Below the pieces are notes generated by a model. That model did no database searches. It saw only the letters and a list, made by a program, of their open reading frames with translations, and was not told the DNA's origin. Shown here in pieces: positions 24,646-59,707 of a stretch of DNA of 64,000 bases. The first letter of the stretch is position 1, and each line of letters starts with the position of its first letter. The DNA comes from Loktanella sp. M215. GTDB lineage: Bacteria > Pseudomonadota > Alphaproteobacteria > Rhodobacterales > Rhodobacteraceae. Both the position numbers and the translations under genes were made by a program. The stretch lies in the NCBI RefSeq assembly GCF_021735925.1, contig NZ_WMEA01000001.1, forward strand, positions 2,262,001 through 2,326,000, written 5' to 3'.

Positions 24646-24876
24646 GTCGATCTCCTGCTTTCCATCAGGATACCGATCGGACCCATTGCTATGCGCGGCT
24701 GGGCAAGTCACCGAAATCAGAATGCGGAAGTTTTGCGAAATGATACATCCCTGAAAGCAATGGGAATTTCATGACTACCGCTCACTTAACAGCAGCATCT
24801 TCCGGTTTCGATACGCCCGCCGAAATGCGCCAAACAGCCGGTGCAGCGAATGTCTCTGAAGAACGGAGACAGGCAC

Positions 24877-25443
24877 ATGAACAACGACATCACACACACG
24901 GCGGGGAGGCTCATCCGCGGGTCGATCAGCACGACGACGCACGACATCGAAGTCGTCATCGGTAAGATCAAGACCGGACGGACGCTGGCTGAAAGGTTCT
25001 CGTTCTCGGATCTGGAGAAGCGTGACTCATATGAGATCGCAGAACTCTACGCCGGGGTGTCGTTCACCGCTTCGCTGACCGCATACCGCCGCAACGGCGA
25101 GTCCTGGCTTCTCGACTACGTGGACCAGCACAGCGAGCGCGGCAGGCTTGTCACGCGACTGATGGACGACCTGAGGGATCTCCTCATCACCTATCAGTAC
25201 GAAGCGTTCCGCTTACTGTGCCGGCACACGACGCTTCCGCACGTTCGGCGTGGCTTGGCTTTGATGTTCATCTGCCTCGACGCTGTCGATGCCGCAAACC
25301 TTTCGGCCTTCAAGTCGTTCGCTGGGATCTCCCAGCGGTGCGGCGATGCTCAGGGCGACGCCCAGTTGCTCGCTGAGGAACATCACCTTGGCCCCGATAC
25401 AGGTCTCTGGCCCGAATCCCCCAACATGAAATTCAAGTCTTAA
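24877..25443 (+). CDS. hypothetical protein of the mobile element
   Basis: 188 residues from the ATG at 24877, preceded by a GGAGA box; an in-frame start 36 bases upstream is less likely. No family recognised. The sequence is mixed charged and helical (SFSDLEKRDSYEIAELYAGVSF, RLVTRLMDDLRDLLITYQYEAFRLLCRH), without membrane segments. It lies 27 bases before the helicase gene on the same strand and is probably part of the replication or early region. Confidence 0.6.
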   Translation: MNNDITHTAGRLIRGSISTTTHDIEVVIGKIKTGRTLAERFSFSDLEKRDSYEIAELYAGVSFTASLTAYRRNGESWLLDYVDQHSERGRLVTRLMDDLRDLLITYQYEAFRLLCRHTTLPHVRRGLALMFICLDAVDAANLSAFKSFAGISQRCGDAQGDAQLLAEEHHLGPDTGLWPESPNMKFKS

Positions 25444-25470
25444 TCGGCGCAGCTTTTGTGCCCTACAAAC

Positions 25471-26844: not shown

Positions 26845-27872
26845 AGCCTGACGGCATCTTTGCTCTTCGACTGATACGACGGACGGTGGTGCGCATAAAC
26901 GCGTTCCACCATCGTTGTGTTTTTATGACCAAGTCTACCCGCGATCTCGAACAGCGGCACGTCAGCTTGGGCCATCCACGTCGCAGCCGTATGCCTCAAA
27001 ACGTGCGGAGTGATGTCCAAGCCGCCCAAGCCGGCCCGCTCAACCGCTGTCCCAAATGCTTTCCGCACCGATGCGATAGACTTACCGCCGAACTCAATGA
27101 CGTTGCCAGTCACGGACCGCTTCCGAGCTTCGGTGAGGGCTTCCACGATGCCTTCATTGATGGGCACATGTGCAGCTGGCTTGATCCGAGCATCACCCCT
27201 GGCGGCTCTCTCTTCGCGCGTCTCGCGCAGGTCGACTTCCCCAAGCTCCAAGTCAACCCGATGCCAGGGCAGGGCGAGGATCGCGCCTGGGCGACCGGCA
27301 GTGTCAAGGCACAGTCGAACAAATAGCTTGATGTGTGCATGTTCGCATGCCGCGATCAGAGCACGCGCCTGATCCCGCGTCAGCGCGACGTCTTTCGCTT
27401 CCGAGGCCGGCGGCAAATCAAGCTTAGGCATCGTGATCGAAATCAGCTTTGCGCCGATTGCGATATTCCACGCTGAAGTCAATGACGATAATTCCTGCCG
27501 GATCGTGGGTCCCGCAACTCCGTCCTGACGACGTGAATACGCGTAATCTTTCGACCACTCCTTGTCGATCTCTTGCAGCGTGACGTCGCCAGCGTATCGA
27601 TTGACTGTCTTCTCGAGATACTTGAATTTGCGGTTCCAAGTCTTCTCGTTTTTTTCCTGCCGCTCTGCGGCCCACACCGACATAAGGTCGGAGACCGTCT
27701 CGATGGTGGCCTCATGCTCGTTACGTCCCGGCCTCTCCGCGATGTATTTCATGAGCACCGCTGTAGCTTTTCCGCGGCTCGTTTCACCAGTACTGATCCG
27801 CTTCTTCCCGTCGCGGATGTGTAGGTGCGGGCGTCCCTTGACCGACGTCAGGTATGGAAGGTTGTCAGTCAT
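26841..27872 (-). CDS. tyrosine recombinase/integrase
   Basis: 343 residues from the ATG at 27872, which overlaps the end of the repressor gene by 8 bases. It has the SAM-like N-terminal domain (WNRKFKYLEKTVNRYAGDVTLQEIDKEWSKDYAYSRR) and the catalytic domain with Arg in LDTAGRPGAILALPW, HVLRHTAATWM (H-x-x-R-H) and LGHKNTTMVERVYAHH with the nucleophilic Tyr. The usual ARxGE box reads GRPGA, a modest deviation. Intact and therefore the likely integrase of the 22-28 kb element; it may recognise a different site from the broken integrase near 21 kb. Confidence 0.9.
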   Translation of the reverse strand: MTDNLPYLTSVKGRPHLHIRDGKKRISTGETSRGKATAVLMKYIAERPGRNEHEATIETVSDLMSVWAAERQEKNEKTWNRKFKYLEKTVNRYAGDVTLQEIDKEWSKDYAYSRRQDGVAGPTIRQELSSLTSAWNIAIGAKLISITMPKLDLPPASEAKDVALTRDQARALIAACEHAHIKLFVRLCLDTAGRPGAILALPWHRVDLELGEVDLRETREERAARGDARIKPAAHVPINEGIVEALTEARKRSVTGNVIEFGGKSIASVRKAFGTAVERAGLGGLDITPHVLRHTAATWMAQADVPLFEIAGRLGHKNTTMVERVYAHHRPSYQSKSKDAVRL

Positions 27873-28248
27873 CTGAACTTTCTGTGATAATTTGAACGAT
27901 CTTCGCCGCCTCGGAAAACGGCATTTCAGTTGCAACCTCGAGGAACACACGACCCTTGTCGCCGTTCAAGGATGGCGAGATCGAATAGGCGTTCCGTGCG
28001 GGTGCGCTTTGCATCTCGATACCGTCAAGCTCCGTTCGGGCGGGGTCGATGTCTGAGGGCTTCACGCCGAACACCTTAGCTATTGCGATCAGCTTTGCAT
28101 CTGGCGGCATTGTTTTGCCGAGGACATATCGACCGAAGCTGTCACGCTGCATGCCAGAACGCCGCGCCAGTTCAGCTTGTGACAACCGGGATGCCGCGGT
28201 TAGCTTTTTCAAGTTTGATGCCCATATTGGAAGTTCCTCATCTGCCAC
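27865..28248 (-). CDS. XRE-family (Cro/CI-like) transcriptional regulator
   Basis: 127 residues. Residues about 10-66 form a helix-turn-helix of the XRE type: LKKLTAASRLSQAELARRSGMQRDSFGRYVLGKTMPPDAKLIAIAKVFGVKPSDI. The remaining C-terminal region is short and has no peptidase active site, so it is not a LexA-like self-cleaving repressor. It is translated in tandem with the integrase and probably keeps the element quiet by binding the repeats just upstream of its own start. Confidence 0.87.
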   Translation of the reverse strand: MADEELPIWASNLKKLTAASRLSQAELARRSGMQRDSFGRYVLGKTMPPDAKLIAIAKVFGVKPSDIDPARTELDGIEMQSAPARNAYSISPSLNGDKGRVFLEVATEMPFSEAAKIVQIITESSDD

Positions 28249-29532: not shown

Positions 29533-31020
29533 TCAATCCGGTTGCGTCGTGACGAAGAAGTAGACCCATTCGCCCTTGAAGTCTGAATGCGCCCTGCGTG
29601 CTGCCGCGATCCTGTCCTTCAGAAATGACAGATACGGTGCCGCTGGTTCCGTGACGGGCCGCATCCCGTCGTACAGCGGAACGGATGTCGCGAAGGCTGC
29701 GGCGATCTCCTGACCGTAGGGGGGGCCGACGGTCAGGGTCAGATAAGGTTTGCCGTTACGCGGGCGGCCGACGGTCATTGCGGCCTTGGCAGCCAAAGGT
29801 TCTAGCGGGACCGTGGTATTGGGTTGCAGGTGTATCACGCTGCCGTCCGCCGCAAAATAATCGACATAGACAAAGCTGTCGTAGTCTGGTCCCGCCAGAT
29901 CAAGCTGCAGGGGCTGGCCGTCGGTATAGGTATAATCGCGGGCAAAGCCGTTGGCACCGATGACCCTCGGGTTCGTCAGCTGTTCGTCCGATTGTGGCAG
30001 ACCTGCGTCCGCGATCCCGGCCAAGGCGCCGCACTGGGGGCGGGGCAGGATCTTCAGATTGTCGGCGACCGCGATCGCCGTACCCATCTGCGCGCGCAGG
30101 GCGGACAGGACCGGGCCCCGCAGGGCGTCCTCTGGAATATGGCCCGACAGGGACAGGGTCCCCGTTGCGGGGTCGAAAACCGTCTGCAACCGGGCGCATG
30201 GCACTGCCGACAACAGCCCCGCTATCCCGTCGCGCACCTTGCTGGCGTCGGCAGAGGCATCGCCTTCGGTGGAAAAGGCGGCGATGGCGGCCAGTGACTG
30301 GGCCGTCAGGGGTGCCGTGTCACCGCCGGACCACGCCAGTGATGCGATCCGGGCGGTTGCGGGCAGGGGCAAATCGGTGGCCGCTTCGGAGGGCAGATCC
30401 GATGGCATGGTTTTGGTCGCCGCAGGCGGACCGGGTGTGACAGCCGTGGCCGGTGCCGTTGCTGCAGCGAGGGTCGCACCCTGCGGCGGCAGAGCGGCGG
30501 CGCTGCGCGATTTGGCCAGCGTGGCGCGCTGGACCGGTCTTGTCGGCACGGCGGCGGCAACCCGCAGCGCCGTTGGTACCGTGGACGCCACCGGTGTGGC
30601 GGTGGATGGCGCCGGGGCGACCGTTGGAGAGGGGAGTGCCACGACGGGGGCCGGGACCGGGCTCGGCCTTGCTGCGACGATCGCATCAGGCGTGGGCAGG
30701 CGCGCCACGGTCGCCAGCGGTGTCGCAACGATGCGGGCCTGCGGCACGATGGGCGCCTCTGCCCGCGGGCGGGTCTGCAGCACGCGGCCCTGTATGGCCG
30801 TGGTCACGGTGGCTTCGCCCTCTGCCGCGGCCTCTCCGCCGGTCTCTGCGGGGCGCCCTTCGGTCTGGCGCACGGCCTGCGATATCATCTCGATCCGGGT
30901 TTGCGGAGGCGTCTGATCGGGAATGGACCGCGGCGACAGCACCATGGCCAGTCCCGACATGGCCGCACCGTGCAGGGCCAGTGATCCGGCAACAGCGGCA
31001 AGGGTGCGAGGGCCGATCAT
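29533..31020 (-). CDS. TonB-like inner-membrane protein with BON-like and DUF4384-like C-terminal module, T6SS-associated
   Basis: 495 residues. An N-terminal anchor (RTLAAVAGSLALHGAAMSGLAMV) resembles TonB anchors, including the Ser/His-type helix, and is followed by about 200 residues of Ala/Pro/Val-rich linker (PAPVVALPSPTVAPAPS...). The folded C-terminal part is not a TonB carboxy domain: a BON-like stretch (LSLSGHIPEDALRGPVLSAL), a Cys-containing segment, then SFVYVDYFAADGSVIHLQPN and PLYDGMRPVTEPAAPYLSFL. The same elements end the PpkA kinase of this locus (GNVFHLLPN, IFDGLRPTTESAAGY). It is encoded with ExbB and two ExbD proteins by four-base overlaps, so it is inferred to be driven or sensed by their proton channel. 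Function in T6SS is inferred, not known to me. Confidence 0.75.
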   Translation of the reverse strand: MIGPRTLAAVAGSLALHGAAMSGLAMVLSPRSIPDQTPPQTRIEMISQAVRQTEGRPAETGGEAAAEGEATVTTAIQGRVLQTRPRAEAPIVPQARIVATPLATVARLPTPDAIVAARPSPVPAPVVALPSPTVAPAPSTATPVASTVPTALRVAAAVPTRPVQRATLAKSRSAAALPPQGATLAAATAPATAVTPGPPAATKTMPSDLPSEAATDLPLPATARIASLAWSGGDTAPLTAQSLAAIAAFSTEGDASADASKVRDGIAGLLSAVPCARLQTVFDPATGTLSLSGHIPEDALRGPVLSALRAQMGTAIAVADNLKILPRPQCGALAGIADAGLPQSDEQLTNPRVIGANGFARDYTYTDGQPLQLDLAGPDYDSFVYVDYFAADGSVIHLQPNTTVPLEPLAAKAAMTVGRPRNGKPYLTLTVGPPYGQEIAAAFATSVPLYDGMRPVTEPAAPYLSFLKDRIAAARRAHSDFKGEWVYFFVTTQPD

Positions 31021-31421
31021 GGCGCGGGTGGCGTGACGACAAGGACGATGTCCGTTGCACCGCGGCTTTCCAGTTCGGCGACCAATGGCAGGACCGACGC
31101 CAGCGGTGCCGCGTGATGGGCATTGATGCGGATCAAGCGGTCCGGTGTGACGGTCAGGTCCTGCGCGATTTGGGCGATCAGGGCGGCATGGTCCAGCGCG
31201 GTGCCGTCCAATGCCAGCGCGCCGTCGTCGGCAATGGCAAGCGTCAGTCCGCCCCCGGGCATGTCGGTCCCCGTGCGTGCCACGGCGGGTGCGACCTCGA
31301 ACGGGGCGGTCGCGTCCATGCGGCCGATCAGCATGAAGAAGACCAGCAGGAAGAACACGACGTCGATCAGCGGCACGATGGTTTCCGGCGCGGTCCGACG
31401 CGTGGCACGCGCAAGCCTCAT
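31017..31421 (-). CDS. exbD-like: biopolymer transporter ExbD/TolR family protein
   Basis: 134 residues from the ATG at 31421, overlapping the previous ExbD-like gene's stop. A single N-terminal transmembrane helix with the proton-channel Asp (VPLIDVVFFLLVFFML) follows a basic cytoplasmic start (MRLARATRRTAPE); the periplasmic domain ends VLPLVAELESRGATDIVLV, as in ExbD/TolR. Two different ExbD proteins in one operon suggest a heteromeric stator. Energises the TonB-like protein encoded next. Confidence 0.88.
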   Translation of the reverse strand: MRLARATRRTAPETIVPLIDVVFFLLVFFMLIGRMDATAPFEVAPAVARTGTDMPGGGLTLAIADDGALALDGTALDHAALIAQIAQDLTVTPDRLIRINAHHAAPLASVLPLVAELESRGATDIVLVVTPPAP

Positions 31422-31813
31422 GGTGCTGCGACCCGCACCACGCGCAGGCTTTTGATGCCGGCGCCGGTGATGGTGTCCATCAACGACACCAGCGACTGGG
31501 TGTCGCCGCGCAAGGACGGCAGGATCAGAATCTGCGTGTCGGCCGGCAGCGCCGCAAGACGGACGGACAGGGCATCGAGAGAGAGCACTTCGCCCGCCAG
31601 CCATGTCTGACCGTCAGCGCCGAGGCGGATCATGACGGGCGTGGCGTCCGCAGGCGTGCCTGCACCTTCGGTCGCGGTCCGCGACAGGGGGATCATGTCG
31701 AGGTTCAGGTAGGTCGAGGTGACCATGAAGAAGACCAGCATGATCAGCAGCACGTCGATCATCGACACCAGAGAGATCAGTCGCGGCGGTGGGGGCGGGC
31801 GGCGCAGATGCAC
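31418..31813 (-). CDS. exbD-like: biopolymer transporter ExbD/TolR family protein
   Basis: 131 residues. Basic Pro-rich N-terminus (HLRRPPPPPR), then the helix SLVSMIDVLLIMLVFFMV with the conserved Asp, and a small periplasmic domain ending SLVSLMDTITGAGIKSLRVVRV. Only distantly similar to the second ExbD encoded downstream, so the pair is an old duplication or two lineages. It begins 3 bases after the ExbB gene. Confidence 0.88.
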   Translation of the reverse strand: MHLRRPPPPPRLISLVSMIDVLLIMLVFFMVTSTYLNLDMIPLSRTATEGAGTPADATPVMIRLGADGQTWLAGEVLSLDALSVRLAALPADTQILILPSLRGDTQSLVSLMDTITGAGIKSLRVVRVAAP

Positions 31814-31816
31814 GCT

Positions 31817-32437
31817 TCAGACGCCCGCGTCGTACCGGGTCAGCAACTGGCCGACGTCGGTTTCAATCCTAGTCCCAGCGCGTTCGACCCATTCCGACAG
31901 AAGGGTCGCGCCGACGGCCGCCGGAATGGCGACCAGCAACCCGGCGGCAGTCGTCAGCAGCGCGGTCCAGATGCCGCCCGCCAGCAAGGATGCATTGGCC
32001 GCCCCCTGCGCCAGCGCCAGTTGCTGGAACGCCGAGATCATGCCTAGCACGGTGCCCAGCAGCCCCAGCAGCGGGCTGACCATGGCGATCAGTTCCAGCA
32101 GTCGGATATGGCGCTGCATCACCGCCATTTCGGCGTTGCCGCGCCATTCCAGTTCCGCCACCAGCACCGCACGGGGGCGGTTCGCCGCAAGCCCCTTCAT
32201 GGCCGTCAGTGTCATCCGGTCGGCGGGGGCGGTGGCGCCTTCAAGCGCCCGCTGGGCGGCATGGTGGTCGCCGGTTGCGAAGGCCTCGATCGCCGCGTGG
32301 CGGCGCGACTCGCCTGCTGTCACGCCGCGCAGGTGGGCGACCTTCACGGCAATCAGCGCCAGCGACCCGACCGACATGACAAGCAGAAGAAAGACAATCG
32401 GCCCGCCGGCGACCAGCATGTCGAAGGGTGCGCCCAC
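31817..32437 (-). CDS. exbB-like: MotA/TolQ/ExbB proton channel family protein
   Basis: 206 residues with three hydrophobic segments: an N-terminal one (IVFLLLVMSVGSLALIAVKV), then the pair containing LLELIAMVSPLLGLLGTVLGMISAFQQLA and GGIWTALLTTAAGLLVAIPAAVG, which are the most conserved parts of ExbB/TolQ. With the two ExbD proteins it forms the proton-motive-force-driven stator complex in the inner membrane. Lies 4 bases after the periplasmic protein gene of the same operon. Confidence 0.9.
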   Translation of the reverse strand: MGAPFDMLVAGGPIVFLLLVMSVGSLALIAVKVAHLRGVTAGESRRHAAIEAFATGDHHAAQRALEGATAPADRMTLTAMKGLAANRPRAVLVAELEWRGNAEMAVMQRHIRLLELIAMVSPLLGLLGTVLGMISAFQQLALAQGAANASLLAGGIWTALLTTAAGLLVAIPAAVGATLLSEWVERAGTRIETDVGQLLTRYDAGV

Positions 32438-32441
32438 GGTC

Positions 32442-32891
32442 CTATTTCACCAAGTCCGCCGCCGTCCGGCTGGTCAGGTCGACCAGTGGAAAGCAGTCCG
32501 TCGCGTCCTCGTTCTGGAAGTTGCAGACAGGGATATCGTGCAGCAGCACCTGTGAGATTGCGTCACAGGCGATGCCGGGGATTTCGAACAGCTTGAGCGT
32601 CGTGCGGGCGGCGGGCAGGGGTGCTGCGTCGATCGACAGAAGCTGGTCGATGATGCCGCCCTTGTCGAGGATCGCCAGCGACATCTGAAACCCCGAAAAG
32701 CTTTTGCCGGTGCCGTTGCGGAACAGGAAAAACGCGCGGCAGCTGTCACCTTCGCCCGCCTCGAACTTGTTCAGTTCGACGGTCAGACGGCTGGATGATG
32801 GCTCGGGTGCCGCCGCTTGTGCAGCGGACCCGGTCGGCTGTGCCGCGACAGCCATGACCAGCGCGACGCAGAGGATCGGAAATCTCGTCAT
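32442..32891 (-). CDS. small periplasmic protein of the ExbB/ExbD module
   Basis: 149 residues from the ATG at 32891; an upstream TTG would add residues lacking signal-peptide character. A signal peptide (FPILCVALVMAVAAQPTGSAAQA) precedes a compact domain with three Cys (DSCRAFFLF, GIACDAI, VCNFQNEDATDCF), probably a disulfide-bonded periplasmic fold. No family assigned with certainty. As the first gene of the operon it is likely a periplasmic partner of the TonB-like protein. Confidence 0.65.
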   Translation of the reverse strand: MTRFPILCVALVMAVAAQPTGSAAQAAAPEPSSSRLTVELNKFEAGEGDSCRAFFLFRNGTGKSFSGFQMSLAILDKGGIIDQLLSIDAAPLPAARTTLKLFEIPGIACDAISQVLLHDIPVCNFQNEDATDCFPLVDLTSRTAADLVK

Positions 32892-33152: not shown

Positions 33153-34208
33153 ATGCCGATCTTTCCAGGGGAGTCGGCGCTTGTGGACCTAAGACCGGAA
33201 AGTCTGGACGACGCGGCGCCAAGCGGGCCGAACGTTGAATACGAGCCGATTTTCGTGGCCTTGGAAATGGCTGCGCAGGGGGGTGAGGAACGGCAGGCTG
33301 GCGACACCATCATCGAGGCCGAACCACCCGATTATGATGATGTGAGCACCAAAGCTCTCGCTGTGCTGGAGCAGAGCCATGATCTGCGGGCTGCGGCACA
33401 TCTGGCGCTGGCGCAAATTCATGTCAACGGCCTGCCGGGGCTGGCTGATGTGATTGGCTATGTGCGCCAGTGCCTCGAGGATTTTTGGGACACCTGCCAC
33501 CCGCAGCTGGACGCCGATGACGACAACGATCCGACCATGCGGGTCAATGCCGTCCTGGCTCTGTCAGGCGCTGCGATGCAACGGGCGATCCGCCTGGCAC
33601 CTCTGACGCGTAGTGCGGCCTTCGGCATGGCGAGCCTGCGTGATCTGGAAATCGTCAACGGCGACATCAGGCCAGCAGAGGGCGAAGATGCGTTCGACGG
33701 CGCGAGCCTGTCTGCCGCGTTCCGTGACACGAAGCCCGAGGTCTTGCAGGACATCCTGTGCGGTGCACGAGGCGCGCTTGACGATCTGAAAAGCATCGAT
33801 GCGGTTTTCGATGTGCTGACGCCCGGTCAAGGCCCTGATCTGGCACCGGCGCAGAAGTTGCTGCAGCGTGCGGTCGGGCGACTGCTGCAGGAGACCGGTG
33901 GCGCGGAGCACACCGCAAAATCCGAGGCGGCGCCTGATGTCGCGCCTGTCATCGGCGGCGTGAGCGCACCTGTCTCGGCACCCGCTGCGCCTGCCGGTGC
34001 CATCAGCAGCTCTGCCGATGTGTCGGTGGCACTGGACCGGATCCTCGCCTATTACGCGCGCTTCGAACCGTCGAGCCCGCTACCGCTGCTGCTGGACCGA
34101 GCCAAACGGCTCGTGGGCGCGGACTTCGTGACCATCATGAAGGACATCGCGCCGGGCGGCATGGAGTCGGTCAAGATCGTCGGGGGTCTGCCGGAGGACG
34201 AAGACTGA
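33153..34208 (+). CDS. tssA: type VI secretion protein TssA (ImpA N-terminal family)
   Basis: 351 residues. The ImpA_N domain is clear from SLDDAAPSGPNVEYEPIF near residue 17 through LAVLEQSHDLRAAAHLALAQIHVNGLPGLADVIGYVRQCLEDFWDTCHPQLDADDDNDPTMRVNAVLAL. A Pro/Ala linker precedes a short C-terminal ring-forming domain (ALDRILAYYARFEPSSPLPLLLDRAKRLVGADFVTIMKDIAP), a pattern of the short TssA class. TssA caps and primes sheath assembly at the baseplate. First gene of the + strand T6SS operon. A GTG nine codons downstream is an alternative start. Confidence 0.93.
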   Translation: MPIFPGESALVDLRPESLDDAAPSGPNVEYEPIFVALEMAAQGGEERQAGDTIIEAEPPDYDDVSTKALAVLEQSHDLRAAAHLALAQIHVNGLPGLADVIGYVRQCLEDFWDTCHPQLDADDDNDPTMRVNAVLALSGAAMQRAIRLAPLTRSAAFGMASLRDLEIVNGDIRPAEGEDAFDGASLSAAFRDTKPEVLQDILCGARGALDDLKSIDAVFDVLTPGQGPDLAPAQKLLQRAVGRLLQETGGAEHTAKSEAAPDVAPVIGGVSAPVSAPAAPAGAISSSADVSVALDRILAYYARFEPSSPLPLLLDRAKRLVGADFVTIMKDIAPGGMESVKIVGGLPEDED

Positions 34209-47002: not shown

Positions 47003-48445
47003 ATGCCTGTGACGATCCATTTCCAGTCGACCGGCACCATGCCGGCCAATGCCAGACCGGCCCGCATGGTGGGGGGGACGATGACGCTTGGCCGGTCGGA
47101 TCAGAACGATCTGGTCCTGCCGGACCCCGACAAGACGATTTCCGGCCGCCACTGCGCGATCGAGGATCATGGCGGCAACGTCGTGGTCGTCGATTTCAGC
47201 ACCAACGGTACGTTTCTGAACTATGGCAAGATCCCTCTGGGCAAGGTGCCGACACCGCTGAACGACGGCGACATCCTGTCGGTCGGGCGCTACGAGCTGC
47301 TGGTCGAGATTGCGCGCGCCGATACCGGGCCCGGTCCGGCCGATCTCTTTGCCGACATCGCGCAGACCGCTCCGGACCAGGCGCCCGCGCGGTCTGCGCC
47401 GCCCACCGCCCGCGCGGCAGACATGTCCGACTTTCTGGACCCGCTGGGCGACGCTGACGGGTTTCTCGACGATCTGCTCGGCGGTCCGACGGCGGGACCT
47501 GCCGGGGTCCGGCGCGATGTGCTGGGGGACGACGGCCTGTTGCCGCCGCTTGGCGACGATGAGGATTTCCTGAAACCGGCACGCGTCCCGGATGGTCCGG
47601 CGCAGTCGTCGCACGCTTCGTCCCTGTCAGAGGCGATGCCACGGCGTGCGGCGGTGGAGCCGGCACCCCCAGTGCCCTCGGGCGGCGCGATCCCCGACAA
47701 CTGGGATCTGGACCTGCTTGGCGGCACGGACTTTTCCTTTGGTGAACCGTTCGAGCCGACGCAACCGGCGCCGCCCGCCGCCGCGCCGGTCATTCCCGAC
47801 GAACCGATTCTGCCCGCCGCCACGGTGCCCCCGGCGACGGCCCCCTCGTCGGCGGCGCCCAACGACGCAGCCCGCGCGTTTCTGGAGGCTCTTGGCGCTG
47901 GCGATCTGGACATTCCCGACGCGGAGCTGACCGAGACGATGGCGCGCCTTGGCGGTGTGCTGAACACCATGATCGGCGGCCTGCGGGACATCCTGATGAC
48001 CCGGCAGTCGATCAAGTCGGAATTCCGGATGCAGCAGACCGTGATTTCGGCCGGTGCGAACAACCCGCTGAAATTCTCGGTCAGCGTCGATCAGGCGATC
48101 ACCGCGATGGTCCGCCCAGCGACCAAGGGCTATCTGCCCGCAGCCGCCGCCGCCTCCGAGGCGCTGAACGACATCAAGGCCCACGAGATCGCGATGATGA
48201 CCGGGATGGAGGCTGCACTGAAAGGCGTGCTGGGGCGGCTGGACCCCAAGCGGCTGACAGAGCGGATTGCGTCGGACAGCAGCCTGCGGTCGGTGCTGAC
48301 CAACAAGAAGGCCCGCTACTGGGACGTGTTCGAGACGCAGTACGCAGAGATTTCGGATCAGGCCGAGAACGATTTTCACGACCTGTTCAGCAAGGAATTC
48401 GCCAGAGCCTATCAGGCGCAGCTGGATCGGCTGAAGGCGACATGA
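47003..48445 (+). CDS. tagH: FHA-domain T6SS protein (TagH/Fha1/ImpI)
   Basis: 480 residues. N-terminal FHA domain with the phosphothreonine-binding motifs LGRSDQND, ISGRHCAIED and STNGTFLNYGKIPLG (about residues 30-80), a 190-residue acidic/Pro-rich linker, and the VasC/TagH C-terminal domain FLEALGAGDLDIPDAELTETMARLGGVL...IKSEFRMQQTVISAGANNPLKFS. In the threonine phosphorylation pathway PpkA phosphorylates Fha and PppA reverses this; both enzymes are encoded in this locus, so post-translational T6SS control is expected. Confidence 0.92.
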   Translation: MPVTIHFQSTGTMPANARPARMVGGTMTLGRSDQNDLVLPDPDKTISGRHCAIEDHGGNVVVVDFSTNGTFLNYGKIPLGKVPTPLNDGDILSVGRYELLVEIARADTGPGPADLFADIAQTAPDQAPARSAPPTARAADMSDFLDPLGDADGFLDDLLGGPTAGPAGVRRDVLGDDGLLPPLGDDEDFLKPARVPDGPAQSSHASSLSEAMPRRAAVEPAPPVPSGGAIPDNWDLDLLGGTDFSFGEPFEPTQPAPPAAAPVIPDEPILPAATVPPATAPSSAAPNDAARAFLEALGAGDLDIPDAELTETMARLGGVLNTMIGGLRDILMTRQSIKSEFRMQQTVISAGANNPLKFSVSVDQAITAMVRPATKGYLPAAAAASEALNDIKAHEIAMMTGMEAALKGVLGRLDPKRLTERIASDSSLRSVLTNKKARYWDVFETQYAEISDQAENDFHDLFSKEFARAYQAQLDRLKAT

Positions 48446-48466: not shown

Positions 48467-49807
48467 ATGTCGTGGGATAGCAAGGTACTGTGGACGGAAG
48501 GGTTGTTCCTGCAGCCGCACCACTTTCAGCAGGCGGACCGTCACACTGAGGCGCTGGTCGCGGGGCTTGCCCGGCGCGTCGCGCCCTACGCATGGGGTGT
48601 GTCCGCGCTCGAGATCGACATGGACGTGCTGAAGGTCGGCCAGTTTGCCGTGAAAGCCTGCGCCGGGCTGACGCAGGATGGCACCGTGTTTCGCGTGCCA
48701 GAGGCCGAGACCCATCCCCCCGCGCTGGAGGTGCCGTCGGAGACCAAGGATTGCATCGTCTATCTGACCGTGCCGCAGCGCCGTCAGGGTGCTGCGGAAA
48801 CGGACCAGACCGGGGCGGAACTGTCGAACGCCCGCCTGCGCATGGGCGAGATCGAGGTGACGGATACGGCAGGCGCCGGTCGCAAGGGTGCGACGCTGAC
48901 CGTCGGCACCTTGCGGCTGCAATTCGCGCTGGCCGTCGACGATCTGGCCGACCGTCTGGTGATTCCCGTCGCCCGCATCATCGAGGTGCGGGCGGATCAG
49001 GAAGTGATCCTTGACGGGTCGTTCATCCCGTCTTGCCTCGACATCCGCGCGGCGGGGCCGCTGGCGGGCTTCGTGCAGGAACTCGACGGTCTGTTGGCGC
49101 ACCGCATGACCGCGCTGTCGGGCCGCATCGCGCAAAGCGGCACGACGAAGGGTGCGGCCGAGATACAGGATTTCCTGCTGCTGCAGACCATCAACCGGAT
49201 GCTGCCCGCCGTGCGTCTGGCGCTCGACATCGAGAACCTGCATCCCCTGCACCTTTACCGCGACTGCGTCATGCTGGCCGGAGAGTTGTCGACCTTCATG
49301 GCGGCGCAGAAGCATCCCCCGGCGTTTCCGGCATACCGGCACCACGATCTGACACAGACATTTTCCGGCGTGATCCGGGTGCTGCGGCAGTACCTGTCGG
49401 CGGTGCTGGAACAGACGGCGGTGTCGATCCCGCTGGAGCCGCGCAAGTACGGCATCTCGGTCGGGGTGATCGCGGACCGCAAGCTGATCAACACCGCGGG
49501 TTTCGTTCTGGCGGTCAGTGCGGACGTACCGTCAGAGAACCTGAGGCGGCACTTTGCCGGTCAAGCCAAGATCGGATCGGTCGAGGAAATCCGGCAGTTG
49601 GTCAATTCTGCACTTCCCGGGATCCCGATGCGGCCCTTGCCGGTGGCGCCGCGGCAGATCCCCTACAGCGCCAACGTGGTCTATTTCGAACTGGACAGCG
49701 ACACGCCGATCTGGGGCCGGATGACGACCTCGGGCGGGATCGCGGTGCATGTCTCGGGCGATTATCCGGGGCTGACGATGGAACTTTGGGCAATCCGGCA
49801 AGGATAG
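48467..49807 (+). CDS. tssK: type VI secretion baseplate subunit TssK
   Basis: 446 residues. The start KVLWTEGLFLQPHHFQQADRHTEAL is the conserved TssK N-terminus, and HPLHLYRDCVMLAGELSTFMAAQKHPPAFPAYRHHDLTQTF and the end NVVYFELDSDTPIW...MELWAIRQG match the family. TssK links the baseplate wedges to the TssL/TssM membrane complex. Confidence 0.95.
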   Translation: MSWDSKVLWTEGLFLQPHHFQQADRHTEALVAGLARRVAPYAWGVSALEIDMDVLKVGQFAVKACAGLTQDGTVFRVPEAETHPPALEVPSETKDCIVYLTVPQRRQGAAETDQTGAELSNARLRMGEIEVTDTAGAGRKGATLTVGTLRLQFALAVDDLADRLVIPVARIIEVRADQEVILDGSFIPSCLDIRAAGPLAGFVQELDGLLAHRMTALSGRIAQSGTTKGAAEIQDFLLLQTINRMLPAVRLALDIENLHPLHLYRDCVMLAGELSTFMAAQKHPPAFPAYRHHDLTQTFSGVIRVLRQYLSAVLEQTAVSIPLEPRKYGISVGVIADRKLINTAGFVLAVSADVPSENLRRHFAGQAKIGSVEEIRQLVNSALPGIPMRPLPVAPRQIPYSANVVYFELDSDTPIWGRMTTSGGIAVHVSGDYPGLTMELWAIRQG

Positions 49808-54100: not shown

Positions 54101-54760
54101 TGCCAGCGGGTGACGACGAACACCTATCCGTTCGAAAAGCGCGCGACCGCCGATGCCTCGCTTGCCGAGTTCGGCGAGCTCTTCAAACCCGGCGGCCAGA
54201 TCGACGCCTTCTTTAAGGCGAACCTCGAAAAGGTCGTCGACATGTCGCAAAGCCCCTGGACCTTCAAGCCGGGGCCGGGGACAGAGCTCGGGATTTCCCC
54301 GGCGGTGCTGACCCAGTTCGAGAATGCGGCCCTGATCCGGGCGGCGTTCTTTTCGGGGGGGGCGAACCTTGGCCTGTCGTTCCAGCTGACGACCGAGGCG
54401 CTGGACCCCAAGGCCGACGGCATCGTGCTGGACATCGACGGGCAGACCGTGGGTTTCGTCCACACGCAGGGCACCCCCGGCACGGTCGCGATGCTGTGGC
54501 CCGGATCGGTGGGTGCCGCGCGGGTGTCGTTCCTGCCCGCTCAGAGCCAGTCTGAAAGCGAACTGGTCCGCAGCGGTCCATGGTCGCTCTTCCGCATCTT
54601 CGATGTGGCAGAGCTGCGCAATACCGACGTGCCCGACAAGAAGCGGCTGATCTTCAATCTGGGGGGGCGGATCGCGATCTTCAAATTGCAGACCGGCACG
54701 TCCATCGATCCCTTCACCTTGGCGGCGCTGCGCGATTTCCGCTGCCCGACGTCGTTCTGA
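51176..54760 (+). CDS. tssM: type VI secretion membrane protein TssM (IcmF)
   Basis: 1194 residues. Two N-terminal transmembrane helices (FGSGIGITLIVGLIASLCLWF and LAVLWIAVLLIVLLIVL), a cytoplasmic NTPase-like domain with intact Walker A GPPGAGKTTAI, FTDDAVLVDTAGRYTTQD and the ImcF-related KADLIAGF (G4-like) motif, a third helix near residue 450, then the long periplasmic IcmF/DUF1215 region. Together with TssL it forms the trans-envelope complex; I see no separate TssJ lipoprotein gene in the window. Confidence 0.95.
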   Translation: MKILRFFGSGIGITLIVGLIASLCLWFVGGYLGFGDRHPFDSVTGRLVGLAVLWIAVLLIVLLIVLRRDRKDTALTEDMVTMADPVAIEDEAVTAELSEMRSKLKAALTGLRKSKSGRKHLYQLPWYIIIGPPGAGKTTAIVNSGLKFPLSDEGEVAAIGGVGGTRNCDWWFTDDAVLVDTAGRYTTQDSDAEADNAAWLGFLALLKKHRKRQPINGAIVAISLSDLSLQDEVTQKAHAQAIRRRLHELRERLGVHFPVYILFTKADLIAGFTEYFDGLGKEEREQVWGFTLPAPRKGTKTPPAAAFDAEFGLLVDQLNALALERIQTETDPQRRSMIAGFSSQVASVQDIARSFLDALFQDNTYEHRQMLRGVYFTSGTQEGTPIDRLMMGMSRTFGIGRQAIGSGRGTGRSYFLTRLFESVIFPEAGLVSADDRVERRYRWTKRASFAAVAVVAIGMGSLWARSYTGNLALLDSTRTGIADYRDQAALIPPSPVGDTDLISIVPALNTLRDLPGNPSGNPSGQPASRPASLGFGLYQGRVIGNEERLTYRSALNTHFLPRLLLRLENQMQSSINDPDLLYETLKVYLTLGGVGPLNPDLVQQWMQADWDAAFPDASREGLRADLAGHLAVLMSGPLQPIALNNDLVKAAQGALTQMPQAQRVYNGIINSPAALDLAAWRLTDVGGPSVAKAFSRSSGQQLNDGIPGIFTKAGFNEVFLEQALTVAARIQSESWVLGQAAAQEQSETALMNLSRDVLALYYEDFNVQYDALLGDLDIIPMKDLPTAVEVTNVLSGPTSPIANVVNAVSAETMLTDVATDDGTAAVAAAAGAPAANLLTRRLSMQSRLFLEAMMKTQAASTGKPAVAPGAPVEAHFAWLHQLTAAAEGQPSALDGLIDILKDVYQELSNLNFAGGIGNPQDASAALPRFQAAAGRVQDGPIKRWASQITVGSKGIATEGTRAGIDAAWQQAVLPLCQRVTTNTYPFEKRATADASLAEFGELFKPGGQIDAFFKANLEKVVDMSQSPWTFKPGPGTELGISPAVLTQFENAALIRAAFFSGGANLGLSFQLTTEALDPKADGIVLDIDGQTVGFVHTQGTPGTVAMLWPGSVGAARVSFLPAQSQSESELVRSGPWSLFRIFDVAELRNTDVPDKKRLIFNLGGRIAIFKLQTGTSIDPFTLAALRDFRCPTSF

Positions 54761-54762
54761 CC

Positions 54763-55341
54763 GTGGGCGCCGTTTCTGCCTTCGGCAAGATCGCAGCCTT
54801 GGGCGATTTCGTCCGCATCGGTGCACCGTCCGGTTTCACCGACCGTTGGGACCGCTGGCTGCAACAGACGATGATCGCGGCCCGCACAGCCTGTGGGGCC
54901 GATTGGCAGAGGTGTTATCTGTCGGCGCCGATCTGGCGCTTCGTCTTGGCGCCGGGGCTGGCCGGGGCACAGGGTGTCGCCGGTGTCATGATGCCTTCGG
55001 TCGACCGGGTCGGGCGGCAGTTCCCGCTGGCCCTGTTCGCGATCTTGCCCAAGGACGTACCCACTCCCGCCGACGCCTGGTTTGCGCGGCTGGAGGATGT
55101 GGCGCTTGCGACGCTGGACGACGCTGCGACGCGTGACACGCTGATGGCAGCGCTGGATGACCTTGCACCGCCGCCGGGCGCTGCTGCCACACCGGCATCC
55201 GGGCAAAGCCACTGGACGGCGCACTGCGATGGCATCATCCAGCGCTTTCAGTTTGCGGGTTGGCCGCCACCCGATGCGGCGGCGGACTTCTTTGATCCTG
55301 CACGCTGGCCCGGTGCCATCCCGCAGGAAGCCCGCGCATGA
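54763..55341 (+). CDS. tagF: type VI secretion-associated protein TagF (SciT family)
   Basis: 192 residues, probably starting with GTG at 54763, two bases after the tssM stop; no strong ribosome site, so it may rely on coupling. SAFGKIAALGDFVRIGAPSGFTDRWDRWLQQTM, WRFVLAPGLAGAQGVAGVMMPSVDRVGRQFPLALFAIL and FDPARWPG are typical of DUF2094/TagF. TagF is known to repress assembly post-translationally in other bacteria, often together with or fused to PppA; here pppA follows with a four-base overlap. Confidence 0.88.
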   Translation: MGAVSAFGKIAALGDFVRIGAPSGFTDRWDRWLQQTMIAARTACGADWQRCYLSAPIWRFVLAPGLAGAQGVAGVMMPSVDRVGRQFPLALFAILPKDVPTPADAWFARLEDVALATLDDAATRDTLMAALDDLAPPPGAAATPASGQSHWTAHCDGIIQRFQFAGWPPPDAAADFFDPARWPGAIPQEARA

Positions 55342-56051
55342 TCAGGCTGCGCCATGTCAGTGCGACCCATGTGGGCCACGTGCGCAAGGTGAATGAGGAC
55401 AGCATCCTGTCGCTGCCGGACGCGCAGGTCTTCGTGGTGTCCGACGGCATGGGCGGCCATGCCGCCGGCGATTTCGCATCGCAGACGGTGGTGGACAGCG
55501 TCGCCACGATGCCGCTGGCGGACACGCCTGCCGCGCAGATGCAGGCGCTGCGTCAGGCCTTGCTGACGGCACACGCTGCGATCCTGTCAGAGATTGCAGC
55601 CCGCGGCGGCGGCACGATCGGTGCGACAGTCGTGGCCCTGATGATCGCCGACGGACATTTCGTCTGCTTCTGGGCCGGTGACAGCCGCCTTTACCGCCTG
55701 CGCGGCGGAGAGATCGAGATGCTGACGACAGATCATTCGATCGTGGCCGACCTCGTGCTGGCAGGACAGCTCAGCTGGGATGCCGCGGAACACCATCCGC
55801 AGTCCAACGCCATCACTCGCGCCGTCGGGGTGGGCGAGGTGCTGGACATCGACAAGATCCGCGGAGAGGTGCAGCGCGGCGACCGCTTCTTGCTCTGCTC
55901 TGACGGTTTGACGAAATACGCCGGGTTTGCCGTGTTGCGTGACCTGCTGTCGGACACCCCGATCGAGACGGTGACGGAACGGCTGATGGCCCGCGCACTG
56001 GAGGGTGGTGGGGCCGACAACATTTCCGTCATCGTGGTGGACGTGGCGTGA
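55338..56051 (+). CDS. pppA: PP2C-family serine/threonine phosphatase PppA
   Basis: 237 residues. PP2C metal-binding motifs appear in order: VRKVNEDSI, VVSDGMGGHAAGD, GGGTIGATVVALMI, FWAGDSRLYRLR, FLLCSDGLTK and GGGADNISVIVVDV. It would remove phosphate from Fha and other PpkA targets, switching the T6SS off. Encoded with TagF, another negative regulator. Confidence 0.94.
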   Translation: MIRLRHVSATHVGHVRKVNEDSILSLPDAQVFVVSDGMGGHAAGDFASQTVVDSVATMPLADTPAAQMQALRQALLTAHAAILSEIAARGGGTIGATVVALMIADGHFVCFWAGDSRLYRLRGGEIEMLTTDHSIVADLVLAGQLSWDAAEHHPQSNAITRAVGVGEVLDIDKIRGEVQRGDRFLLCSDGLTKYAGFAVLRDLLSDTPIETVTERLMARALEGGGADNISVIVVDVA

Positions 56052-56102
56052 TCCCCGTTCGCGAATCCGATGTCCGGCCACCACCTGCCGGATCAACGCA
56101 CC

Positions 56103-56117
56103 GGGGCTTCTTGCCCC
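56103..56117 (+). terminator. short hairpin between pppA and the 202-aa gene
   Basis: GGGGC-TTCTT-GCCCC, five GC pairs with a five-base loop, about 20 bases before the next ribosome site (AGAGGAAGA). It may partly separate expression of the following gene from the long operon, as with the hairpins round hcp. Confidence 0.4.
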
Positions 56118-56138
56118 CTCAAACAGAGGAAGACTGAG

Positions 56139-56788: not shown

Positions 56789-59086
56789 TCAGCGCGCGGC
56801 CGTCGTCAGGATGGCGCTGTCCAGTGACCGCACGGTGCCGGAGGAGGCGGCCAGCGCGGTGGCATAGCCCGCCGCGCTTTCCGTCGTGGGGCGCAAACCG
56901 TCGAAGATCTGATCTTCGGCATGGATCGCCAGAATCTGCGTCTTGCCCAGTGTGGTGTCGTCCACGGTAAAGGCCAGCTTCTTGCCGTCCGCCGCAGCGG
57001 CCAGCGGCCATGCGACCCGCAGGGTGACCGGACCGTCACCGCCCTGACGCAGGCTGGTCACCGCGTTGTCGGGCGTCAGCATGTTGGGCAGCAGGTGGAA
57101 CACGTTGCCAGAGACGTCCAGCGCCGACACGAACAGATAGCCCGTCGTCATCGTCGCGGGAATCGTGACGTCGATCACGGGGTTGTCGCCGACGACGAAA
57201 GTGCCGGTCGGATTTTCAGTGTCGTTGGCACCGTTGCCGAACGTGATCTGGATGCCCCCCGGAGGGGCGGCGGGCAGGACGGCTGCGATCTGGCACAGCG
57301 CAGGATTGAGGACGGTGACATTCAGATCCAGAGGCCGCGTGCCGGCGCGGGCGGTCAGCGCCGCTGTCAGCGTGCTGAGCGCATCGTCGCTGGCGACCTC
57401 GCCTGCCACCTGAACGGGCGTATCCGCCGCATAACCGACGGCGGGGGGATCGACGAGGTGCAGTGCGCCGCAGTCGGATTGGTCCTGCAGCACCTGTTCC
57501 AGCGCTGGCGGCTGCAGGATCGACAGGGTCAGGCTAATCTCGGCCGTGCCGGTCAGGCCGGCGGGCAGGGCGTCCGGGGCAAGGGCCGCCATCAGGCGGT
57601 CACGCTCGGCGGGGTCGTCTGTCGTGCCGCTGATCCGCAGGGCATTGCCGTCGGCCAGCATGCTCCAGTCCGGCAGGACTGACACCTGTCCCAGCACATC
57701 CACGATCCCGGTGCCCCAGTTCGCAGCGATGTCGCCGCTGGCGAGCGTCAGATCCGCCGTGCCGCCCAGATCGTCGGTCAGGGCCTGCACCGCATCGCGC
57801 ACATCCTGTGACGGGACATTGCCCACGATTTCGACGCTGCCGCCAGCGGGTCGTGCGGCGGCAAATGTATAGGGATCCGCCACAGGCAGTGCAGGGCTGA
57901 CCGGTGCCACATCGGTGGCCGTGTCGGGCGGGGGCGCAGGGTCGGTCACCGTTCCCGCATCTGCGAGCGCCGTGCCACTGTCCCCGGAGGGTGCTGCATC
58001 GCCGCGCGATACGGCGTCCGCTGGGGCCACTGACCCGCTTCCACCCAAAACGCCCGCACCGTAAAGCCCGCCGCCCACGGCCAGAACCACTACGACCGCC
58101 GCCACGCCAATCAGCCCGCCACGGCCTTTCGGCTTTGCCGGGACGGCGGCCTGTGGCGCGACAGTGGGCGGCGTTTTCGCGGCGGCGGGGCGTGGCGCGA
58201 TCACGGTGTGTTCGCCGGCGTCGTCGCCGAAATCCAGCGGGGCGGCATCGACCGCCGAGACGGTCGGATGGTCGATTTCCTGCAGGACATCCTGCGCGGT
58301 TTGCAGCCGGGCGTCGCGATCGGGGTGGGTCATCTTGTCGATCAGGGACTTCAGCGGTTCCGGCACGCGACCGGTGTCGAGGGGCTGCGCCTTGCGCTGG
58401 ATCACTTCCATCGGATTCGATCCGATGTCGGGCGCCTTGCCTTCGAACGCGGCCAGCAGCAGCGCACCCAGCGCATAGATATCCACCCGCGCATCGGTCT
58501 GGCCGCCCAGTTGCTCTGGTGCGGCATAGGCGTATTTGCCGGCGAATTCGTTGCCGACGATGGTTTCCGCGCCGGGGTTGGTGTCCTTGGCGATGCCGAA
58601 GTCGATGATCACCGCATCGGCGGGGTTGCCGTGGCGCAGGATGATGTTGTCGGGCGACAGATCGCGGTGGACGATATTCTTGGCGTGCGCCGCGATCAGG
58701 CCCTGCGTCACACGCCGCGCCACCACCATCAGGTCGGCGGCAGGCATCCCGCCCTGCTTGATCTTCTGGTCCAGCCCCGGGCCTTCGACGTAGTCCATCA
58801 CCAGATAGACAAGCCCCTGATCGGTGCGCTGGTTGTCGTAGTACCGCACGACGGCATCGTGGCGGATTTCGCGCATCTCTTCCTCGCGGGTCATCAGCGC
58901 GAGGAAATCTTCGTTGCGGGAGTATTCCAGCCGCAGCGCCTTCAGTGCGACGACCCGGCCCGAAATCTCGCTGACGGCGCGGTAGACTTCCGACGTCCCG
59001 CCGCGGCCCAGCACCTTGTCGATCCGGTAGGTGTTGTTCAGGACGTCGCCGACATTGAAAATGCCGCGGTTGGGCGTGCCGGTCAT
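56789..59086 (-). CDS. ppkA: PpkA-type serine/threonine protein kinase with BON-like repeats and DUF4384-like C-terminus
   Basis: 765 residues. The N-terminal Hanks-type kinase (about 20-275) has the Gly loop VLGRGGTSEVY, VVALKAL with the ATP Lys, HRDLSPDNIIL, DFGIAKD and YAAPEQLGG. After a short cytoplasmic linker a transmembrane helix (GLIGVAAVVVVLAVGGGLYGAGVL, about 325-348) leads to a periplasmic part with BON-like repeats (VEIVGNVPSQDVRDAVQALTDDL, ALRISGTTDDPAERDRLMAAL) and a C-terminal module with YLFVSALDVSGNVFHLLPN and IFDGLRPTTESAAGY. In T6SS the kinase senses an envelope signal and phosphorylates Fha to trigger assembly. The C-terminal module is shared with the TonB-like protein at the other end of the locus. 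Confidence 0.92.
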   Translation of the reverse strand: MTGTPNRGIFNVGDVLNNTYRIDKVLGRGGTSEVYRAVSEISGRVVALKALRLEYSRNEDFLALMTREEEMREIRHDAVVRYYDNQRTDQGLVYLVMDYVEGPGLDQKIKQGGMPAADLMVVARRVTQGLIAAHAKNIVHRDLSPDNIILRHGNPADAVIIDFGIAKDTNPGAETIVGNEFAGKYAYAAPEQLGGQTDARVDIYALGALLLAAFEGKAPDIGSNPMEVIQRKAQPLDTGRVPEPLKSLIDKMTHPDRDARLQTAQDVLQEIDHPTVSAVDAAPLDFGDDAGEHTVIAPRPAAAKTPPTVAPQAAVPAKPKGRGGLIGVAAVVVVLAVGGGLYGAGVLGGSGSVAPADAVSRGDAAPSGDSGTALADAGTVTDPAPPPDTATDVAPVSPALPVADPYTFAAARPAGGSVEIVGNVPSQDVRDAVQALTDDLGGTADLTLASGDIAANWGTGIVDVLGQVSVLPDWSMLADGNALRISGTTDDPAERDRLMAALAPDALPAGLTGTAEISLTLSILQPPALEQVLQDQSDCGALHLVDPPAVGYAADTPVQVAGEVASDDALSTLTAALTARAGTRPLDLNVTVLNPALCQIAAVLPAAPPGGIQITFGNGANDTENPTGTFVVGDNPVIDVTIPATMTTGYLFVSALDVSGNVFHLLPNMLTPDNAVTSLRQGGDGPVTLRVAWPLAAAADGKKLAFTVDDTTLGKTQILAIHAEDQIFDGLRPTTESAAGYATALAASSGTVRSLDSAILTTAAR

Positions 59087-59107: not shown

Positions 59108-59707
59108 TCAGCTGAGGGCCTGGAATTCGACGCGGCGATTGGCATCGGCCTTGGGATTGGCCGGATCGAAGGGGAACCGTTCACCCACGCCAAGCGCTTC
59201 CATCCGGTCTTCTGGAAATCCGCAGTCGGTAGCCAGAAAGCGTTTCACTTCCTCGGCGCGCAGCTTGGACAGGCGTTCGTTGTAGTCCGCGGTGCCAGAG
59301 GCGTCGGTATGCCCGAGGATGCGAATCGCCTGCACGTCGGCCGCCTTCAACGCGCCACACAGCGTCACCAGCTTGGGCTTCTGGTCGGCGCGCAGGGCGG
59401 CGGAATCGAAGTCGAAGGAGACGTTGACGTTCACCTGTTCGCGCTGCGGGATGGCGGTCGCGATTTCCGCGACGGTATCGGCACCCTGCGGTGCGGCGTC
59501 CGTTGCGGCATCCGACGCGGCAGCGTCCGGCGTGGCCAGCACAAGGCCACGTGTCTTCTGGGTGCGGAACTTTTCGGCCATCTGCTCTGCCGTCTCGCCG
59601 CCCGCATCCGCCGCCTGTGCTGCCACCGCATGAAGGTTCAGGGGAGAGACCAGCAGGCCCGCCGAAAGGGCGGCCACTGCGACGATGGGAACGAGACGTT
59701 GCAACAT
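59108..59707 (-). CDS. OmpA-family periplasmic/outer-membrane protein
   Basis: 199 residues. Signal peptide (LVPIVAVAALSAGLLVSPLNLHAVAAQA), a short Ala/Thr/Asp-rich spacer and a C-terminal OmpA domain: NVSFDFDSAALRADQKPKL, IRILGHTDASGTADYNERLSKLRAEEVKRFL and ANRRVEF. The Asp/Arg residues that bind diaminopimelate are in HTDASG and NERLSKLRA. Upstream of ppkA on the same transcript, 21 bases before it, so it may give PpkA a peptidoglycan-linked partner, as TagQ/TagP-like envelope proteins do elsewhere. Confidence 0.88.
   Translation of the reverse strand: MLQRLVPIVAVAALSAGLLVSPLNLHAVAAQAADAGGETAEQMAEKFRTQKTRGLVLATPDAAASDAATDAAPQGADTVAEIATAIPQREQVNVNVSFDFDSAALRADQKPKLVTLCGALKAADVQAIRILGHTDASGTADYNERLSKLRAEEVKRFLATDCGFPEDRMEALGVGERFPFDPANPKADANRRVEFQALS

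Follow-up and report, generated by a model that had tools for sequence, protein, structure and literature searches.

What is an ExbB/ExbD-type motor doing inside a locus for a type VI secretion system (T6SS), and could it act on the T6SS kinase PpkA? The locus that raises this question lies in a 64,000-nucleotide stretch of Loktanella sp. M215 (assembly GCF_021735925.1, contig NZ_WMEA01000001.1, positions 2,262,001-2,326,000, forward strand), hereafter the window. Its open reading frames (ORFs) and family scans define five minus-strand genes at 32891-29533, encoding a secreted protein (Sec), an ExbB, two ExbDs (ExbD1 and ExbD2) and a TonB-like protein. Our data support the view that this operon is a proton-motive-force (PMF) module dedicated to the T6SS. 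Profile comparison shows that the TonB-like protein and PpkA have homologous endings, and we consider it an even bet (probability about 0.5) that the five genes form a PMF-energised tether of the TonB type, serving as a periplasmic input that controls PpkA directly.

The five-gene module and its link to the T6SS

The first gene, Sec (32442..32891), encodes a secreted four-Cys protein predicted to be a beta-sandwich, whose fold may be like that of E. coli IrmA, and it matched nothing in the Pfam and NCBIfam family scans. It is followed on the same strand by an ExbB/TolQ-type channel subunit (31817..32437; PF01618, MotA_ExbB, 3.9e-27), ExbD1 (31418..31813; PF02472, 1.4e-14), ExbD2 (31017..31421; PF02472, 5.7e-18) and the 495-residue TonB-like tether, which we call type 1 (29533..31020; DUF4384, PF14326, 4e-6; TonB_C absent). 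The ExbD1 and ExbD2 genes overlap by four bases, as do the ExbD2 and TonB-like genes. The named loci used for comparison are the 80 best among 135 relatives, with genera such as Sulfitobacter, Ruegeria and Leisingera, and the gene order was kept in 74/74 of those in which all five genes were found. The divergent neighbour of the operon is tssA (33153..34208, plus strand; TIGR03363, 1.4e-59). An initial annotation of the window had described an ExbB/ExbD/ExbD/TonB-like/secreted-Cys set divergent from tssA, and its coordinates, strand and families are borne out.

We then surveyed 394 genomes (393 genera) of the same family with an alignment of 38 TonB-like homologues (A1). Matches were found in 46 genomes: 44 had a strong TonB-like match, and two (G226, G342) had a weak match to the ending only. 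TssK scored above cut-off in 101/394 genomes, and all 44 genomes with the TonB-like protein were among these 101 (Fisher 1.8e-30, uncorrected for kinship). The module and tssK shared a contig in 31/44 genomes, at 5.1-27.3 kb in 30 and at 767 kb in G093, and lay on different contigs in the other 13. Sorted by TssK score, the module was present in 41/59 genomes at 480 bits or above, in 1/30 at 400-480 bits and in 2/12 below 400; the single case at 400-480 bits (G325) has a TssK match cut by a contig end. The available flank contained tssA/B/C/E/F in 68/80 named loci, and eight of the other 12 have less than 2 kb upstream of the module. In two genomes with a more distant T6SS (G031, G083), the module sits inside the T6SS cluster, in G083 directly beside ppkA. 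These observations strongly support the link between module and T6SS, and they agree with the initial annotation, which had expected the operon to co-occur with T6SS loci: it does so in 44/44 genomes, within 28 kb of tssK in 30/31.

A common ending in the TonB-like protein and the T6SS kinase

The TonB-like protein has 586 homologues at E<=0.001. Its transmembrane (TM) helix, residues 4-27 in the AlphaFold2 (AF2) model (30940..31011, minus strand), contains S13-x3-H17, a spacing that we take to be that of an SHLS-type motif. S13 is kept in 37/37 and H17 in 35/37 of the A1 rows that reach this site (38 rows in total), the Leu position of the motif is L in 26/37, and its final Ser is not conserved. 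The linker that follows (residues 30-235; 16% Pro, 22% Ala) is predicted to be long, proline-rich and disordered, with a predicted local distance difference test (pLDDT) score below 50 across most of residues 59-233. The SHLS motif is named in PMC10907165. The D-box motif from the same paper, a strand of alternating hydrophobic residues flanked by prolines beyond the TM helix, was compared by eye with a hydrophobic-x-hydrophobic stretch that follows a conserved Pro in A1, and its pattern appears only partly kept there. The C-terminal half comprises a BON-like part (residues 277-337; 30010..30192, minus strand; BON_like match 0.0015, below its cut-off) and a DUF4384 domain, an immunoglobulin-like sandwich (residues 353-493; 29542..29964, minus strand), which at 27.2 bits barely exceeds the PF14326 gathering cut-off of 27. 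The block of residues 361-495 is modelled at pLDDT 88-98. A Pfam scan found no TonB_C at E<=1, as the initial annotation had said of the TonB carboxy domain, and HHalign gave E 0.33 for the C-terminus against the TonB_C profile.

PpkA (56789..59086, minus strand) consists of a kinase domain (Pkinase 3e-38, residues 20-269), a hydrophobic stretch at about residues 324-349, read from the sequence, and a C-terminal module (residues 538-756; 56819..57475, minus strand). Since Pfam makes no DUF4384 call on the window PpkA (PF14326 not matched at E<=1), a profile test of the common ending was needed. BLASTP between the two window proteins gave 5e-4. When A1 was compared with an alignment of 37 PpkA homologues (A2) by HHalign, the full-length profiles matched at E 1.1e-6 (probability 91%, 193 columns), pairing residues 274-478 of the TonB-like protein with 538-756 of PpkA, and the C-termini alone matched at E 3e-8 (95%, 203 columns). 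Sixteen control runs, four C-termini against the TonB_C, Sec, ExbB and ExbD1 profiles, gave E 0.049-0.6. This comparison shows that the BON-like and DUF4384 ending of the TonB-like protein is homologous to the ending of PpkA, as had been proposed. The initial annotation had named two outcomes as counter-evidence, a lack of profile similarity and an operon occurring mostly without a T6SS, and we observed neither.

With its ending part, the A1 profile matched another 15 loci, in 15 genomes of the same family (E 5e-7 to 5e-4). For eleven of them, tssK is on the same contig at a distance of 6.3-29.4 kb, the position expected for ppkA; of the other four, one is 239 kb from tssK and three are on contigs without tssK. 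DUF4384-ended kinases in other alphaproteobacterial families adjoin pppA or T6SS genes (L207, L208, L210). Because a profile of the type-1 TonB-like ending (ton1) matches these T6SS-linked kinases at 3e-27 to 3e-21, the sequences suggest that the DUF4384-type domain belonged first to T6SS kinases and was later added to the TonB-like protein. One more bearer of the domain is a papain-family peptidase fused to DUF4384 (L209:9276-11840).

The design recurs in a second T6SS subtype, whose TonB-like protein and kinase are again matched, through other domains. Among T6SS genomes with TssK scores of 400-480 bits, a Sec-family match was present in 26 of the 29 that have no type-1 module. We examined 22 of these 26, and 19 contain a Sec-ExbB-ExbD-ExbD-TonB-like set whose last protein has a different ending (ton2); of the remaining three, G159 is truncated where its contig stops, and G121 and G382 have Sec without ExbB in the stretch. 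Six genomes with window-type TssK and no type-1 module also carry ton2 (G056, G175, G026, G240, G391 and G264), giving 25 ton2 loci in total; of the 18 genomes with a window-type T6SS that lack ton1, 12 showed no ton2 in the sequence searched. In 20/25 loci, the kinase gene is convergent with ton2 inside a single stretch of at most 20 kb. HHalign matched the ton2 and type-2 kinase (kin2) endings at 3.7e-23 (99.5%), against 0.24 for ton1-kin2, 0.37 for ton2-kin1, 0.13 for kin1-kin2 and 0.0093 for ton1-ton2. The ton2 and kin2 profiles were built from loci that are later described with them (L205, L211-L230); L231-L250, L253 and the kinases of G056 and G300 (L167-L170) lie outside this training set. 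In L235 and L237 (G175 and G026), which have a window-type T6SS with kin1, an extra cassette of pppA-kin2 and ton2 is located away from the T6SS core.

Next, we compared the type of module with the type of kinase in each genome. The kinase was looked for in 24 of the 44 type-1 genomes, and 21/24 have a kinase whose ending is of type 1 as judged with either the kin1 or the full-length A2 profile; in G228, the contig ends before the kinase could appear. Among the ton2 genomes, 23/25 carry kin2. These include G300, in which the module is about 1.17 Mb from tssK, G264, in which module and kinase are 21 kb apart, and G056, in which they are on different contigs; in G166, on a short contig, kin2 was not seen. 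No crossed pair of module and kinase was observed in the 21 type-1 and 23 type-2 genomes. Across 20 type-2 pairs, distances between TonB-like endings correlated with those between kinase endings (r 0.86). With the distances of the kinase catalytic domain and of ExbB taken into account, the partial correlation was 0.58, a value reached in 0/2000 label permutations, which leave some kinship effect.

Origin of the motor and its proton sites

Outside the T6SS, the same motor genes occur with a conventional TonB. The Sec family is present in 37/385 genomes of the class, and the full-length TonB-like type was found in this set in the window's own genome only, with eight other matches covering the DUF4384 end alone. 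Among 60 scanned stretches, 23 loci have the Sec, ExbB and paired ExbD genes together with one for a protein bearing a true TonB_C (2.2e-16 in L199); in L191, L192, L194 and L195, Sec is some kilobases away from the motor genes. T6SS genes were found in 0/23 of these loci, in stretches of up to 20 kb. A quick tree, built with 23/79 type-1 rows and with the ExbD2 Asp/Asn column omitted, groups the type-1 motors with TonB systems of other families (SH-like approximate likelihood-ratio test 98). Because of this tree and the comparison with the TonB_C loci, we interpret the window operon as a TonB system in which TonB_C has been replaced, and we infer that the parent was an alphaproteobacterial Sec-ExbB-ExbD-ExbD-TonB system with a true TonB_C. 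Two separate captures by the two T6SS subtypes are the scenario that we favour. We rejected independent capture as an established fact, as an approximately unbiased (AU) test does not reject a single joint T6SS clade (p 0.22). A class-level association of Sec with TssK was likewise set aside as weak (11/37 versus 57/348, Fisher p 0.066), with several of those TssK scores being low.

The motor subunits retain the residues of their families. The Thr residues in TM2 and TM3 of ExbB, presumably pore-lining, are conserved in 129/129 compared sequences. At the proton site in its TM segment, ExbD1 has Asp in all 129 systems (79/79 type-1, 25/25 type-2, 23/23 TonB_C and 2/2 unassigned). Based on this conservation and on family membership, ExbB and the two ExbDs probably form a proton-driven motor in the inner membrane. 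The window ExbD2 also has Asp at this site, as do 79/79 type-1 systems, in contrast to the related systems, which have Asn: 24/25 type-2 (Ser in one), 23/23 TonB_C and 2/2 unassigned. As a side finding, the related systems would be half-protonatable motors, and the window type has Asp in both ExbDs. Two unlike ExbDs, one of them without a protonatable residue, seem to be normal for the parent system. No report of an Asp/Asn ExbD pair was present among the open-access literature matches listed, and such natural pairs could be used to ask how many protonatable sites these motors need.

Proposed action, alternatives and known systems

How could such a motor reach the kinase? We propose that the T6SS captured a TonB-type PMF energiser. 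The TonB-like protein would be anchored in the ExbB/ExbD motor by its N-terminal helix, with the linker spanning into the periplasm, and the nutrient-receptor binder TonB_C would have been swapped for a BON-like and DUF4384 module of the PpkA periplasmic kind. The motor would move, present or withdraw this module, which would then pair with the periplasmic domain of PpkA or compete with it for a common ligand, for which Sec and the OmpA-domain protein beside ppkA are candidates. As a result, PpkA activation, Fha phosphorylation and T6SS assembly would be set by the PMF and the envelope state. The periplasmic domain of PpkA is a plausible target because, according to PMC6082577, it is bound by RtkS in Serratia and probably by TagR in P. 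aeruginosa; the module would fill the place that TagQRST/TagR or RtkS has in other T6SSs. A more specific version is held more tentatively, at somewhat below even odds: a nutrient TonB system was re-tooled during T6SS evolution, perhaps twice, by exchange of TonB_C for a kinase-type sensor domain; its motor exerts a mechanical action on the kinase's periplasmic domain, or by way of it; and motor and kinase, as a matched pair, tie firing to how well the membrane is energised and to the state of the envelope.

Several observations weigh against direct control of PpkA by the module. No type-1 module is present in 18 of the 59 genomes with TssK at 480 bits or above, and kin1 occurs without ton1 in G219, G342, G364, G175 and G026, the last two of which also bear ton2 and kin2. 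Since PpkA retains its type-1 ending in these five although the type-1 module is missing, the module is accessory rather than obligatory. No kinase was found in the stretches examined for two genomes with a type-1 module (G093, G193) or for G149, whose type-2 module is about 150 kb from tssK, and the type-1 pairing covers the 24 genomes in which the kinase was looked for. The ton1 profile fits the kinases of other families better than the co-resident PpkAs (2e-9 to 2e-4 where listed; no value listed for G031), so tight co-evolution is not required in type 1. The common domain may also signal a common envelope ligand rather than contact. The initial annotation is supported in part: it stands in its wiring of a PMF module to the T6SS (44/44 genomes) and in the periplasmic domain common to rod and kinase (HHalign, second subtype), with control of T6SS firing, energy gating and wall-stress sensing as putative functions.

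The alternative that survives best, which we judge unlikely yet worth serious attention, is a structural energiser dedicated to the T6SS, whose point of action at the secretion site would be peptidoglycan, the outer membrane or the membrane complex and whose task would be placement, passage or repair, with rod and kinase binding the same envelope target. It would account for the T6SS-only distribution and the domain sharing, and it fits the weak BON-like similarity of the tether's ending and the OmpA-domain, YceI-OmpA, caspase and M23 peptidase genes among the neighbours. By itself, however, it accounts neither for the change of tether domain from one kinase type to the other, without any crossed pair, nor for the partial correlation between tether and kinase endings. 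We regard as improbable that the module energises an outer-membrane transporter importing T6SS-secreted matter such as metal-binding effectors. T6SS effectors working with TonB-dependent receptors have been reported (PMC8602904), and the parent systems bear a true TonB_C, but here the receptor-binding TonB_C is missing, a kinase-type domain takes its place, and no TonB-dependent receptor was found among the window proteins scanned, which covered part of its ORFs. Finally, ordinary TonB or Tol-Pal genes lying beside a T6SS by chance can be dismissed almost entirely: members of the ExbB and ExbD families are common, and operons of this kind with TonB_C are found away from T6SS genes, but the 44/44 co-occurrence compares with a TssK background of 101/394, TonB_C is absent, the tolQ/tolR equivalog cut-offs are not reached, and none of the 23 TonB_C loci has T6SS genes nearby.

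Direct input to PpkA would act on the T6SS threonine phosphorylation pathway, of which PpkA, PppA, Fha and TagF are all encoded in the locus. Fha (47003..48445, plus strand; FHA 1.5e-15, T6SS_FHA_C 8.1e-57) is the expected PpkA target. It is followed on this strand by tssK (48467..49807; PF05936, 1.8e-148), tagF (54580..55341; PF09867, 1.2e-39) and the phosphatase gene pppA (55338..56051; PP2C_2 2.2e-14). A 224-residue protein (56070-56744) that matched no Pfam or NCBIfam family at E<=1 lies between pppA and ppkA, and the OmpA-domain protein (59108..59707, minus strand; PF00691, 1.1e-16) is on the other side of ppkA. Family searches confirmed tssA, tssB, the TagJ/ImpE gene, vgrG, fha, tssK, tssL, tagF, pppA and ppkA in the window; the labels tssC, hcp, tssE, tssF, tssG, tssH and tssM were assigned from sequence and gene order.

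Other neighbours were noted along the way. A DUF6931 protein is encoded between vgrG and fha (46083-46691), and its gene occupies the same site in every type-1 T6SS locus whose vgrG-fha stretch was examined. A ShlB/FhaC-type two-partner secretion transporter (61785-63551) is located near the T6SS end. Just past the end of the TonB-like gene, 24274-28248 holds a phage lysozyme, an AAA protein, an integrase and, by eye, a small helix-turn-helix-like ORF; this is likely an integrated element abutting the module, and no tRNA was found in the window as its integration site. In 54 of the 77 type-1 loci with enough sequence, the 4 kb that follow the module downstream contain a caspase-family gene (PF00656), and in 51 a YceI-OmpA gene. 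Type-2 stretches have a caspase-like gene in 25/27 and an M23 peptidase in 18. The window itself showed no caspase of this kind. In L035, tssA and Sec are separated by a gene (L035:6484-8049) with no Pfam match above cut-off, and homologues of it are present in 37/80 type-1 loci.

To our knowledge, periplasmic signal input to T6SS kinases has been worked out in few lineages, namely for TagQRST and RtkS. A TonB-type motor that bears the kinase's own domain type would, if confirmed, link control of the weapon to the PMF, and this is directly testable. An ExbB/ExbD module in T6SS control was absent from the open-access literature matches listed, a scope that leaves subscription papers mostly outside; within it, the initial annotation's remark that it knew of no account of such a system holds. 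By their titles and the starts of their abstracts, the open-access papers that name T6SS, ExbD and PpkA together are genome or strain-characterisation papers. New here are the parent TonB_C system, the second-subtype set with its matched kinase, the absence of crossed pairs and the ExbD2 Asp/Asn contrast.

Among known systems, the Tol-Pal complex TolQRA resembles the module in its MotA/TolQ/ExbB channel family, its ExbD/TolR family and a periplasm-crossing tether, but the window proteins reach 74.7 bits for NCBIfam tolQ (cut-off 221) and 35.2 and 34.5 bits for tolR (cut-off 127.3). Acidovorax citrulli has a TssW-PpkA-Fha axis in which TssW, like our tether, is an envelope-anchored accessory protein tied to PpkA. 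TssW itself is anchored in the outer membrane; the window system would have a PMF motor, and the abstract of PMC12607579 mentions none for TssW. The TagQRST-PpkA and RtkS-PpkA inputs to T6SS threonine phosphorylation (PMC6082577) have in common with the window locus PpkA, PppA, TagF and Fha, and a periplasmic partner dedicated to the kinase, which in the window would be the module. The input proposed here differs in being PMF-powered and in using the kinase's own periplasmic domain type. With the TonB-ExbB-ExbD systems that have two exbD genes, the operon shares the ExbB pore residues, the ExbD Asp and an anchored, disordered rod, and its nearest relatives among the loci scanned are the parent systems that pair Sec with a true TonB_C. 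In the tonB1-exbB1-exbD1-exbD2 system of Sphingobium, both ExbDs keep Asp-25 (PMC8599685), unlike the parent TonB_C systems with their Asn in ExbD2. Compared with such systems, the window operon has a BON-like and DUF4384 module for TonB_C, a tie to the T6SS and an additional Sec gene; it shows an ExbB/ExbD motor re-tooled by exchanging the far end of its tether.

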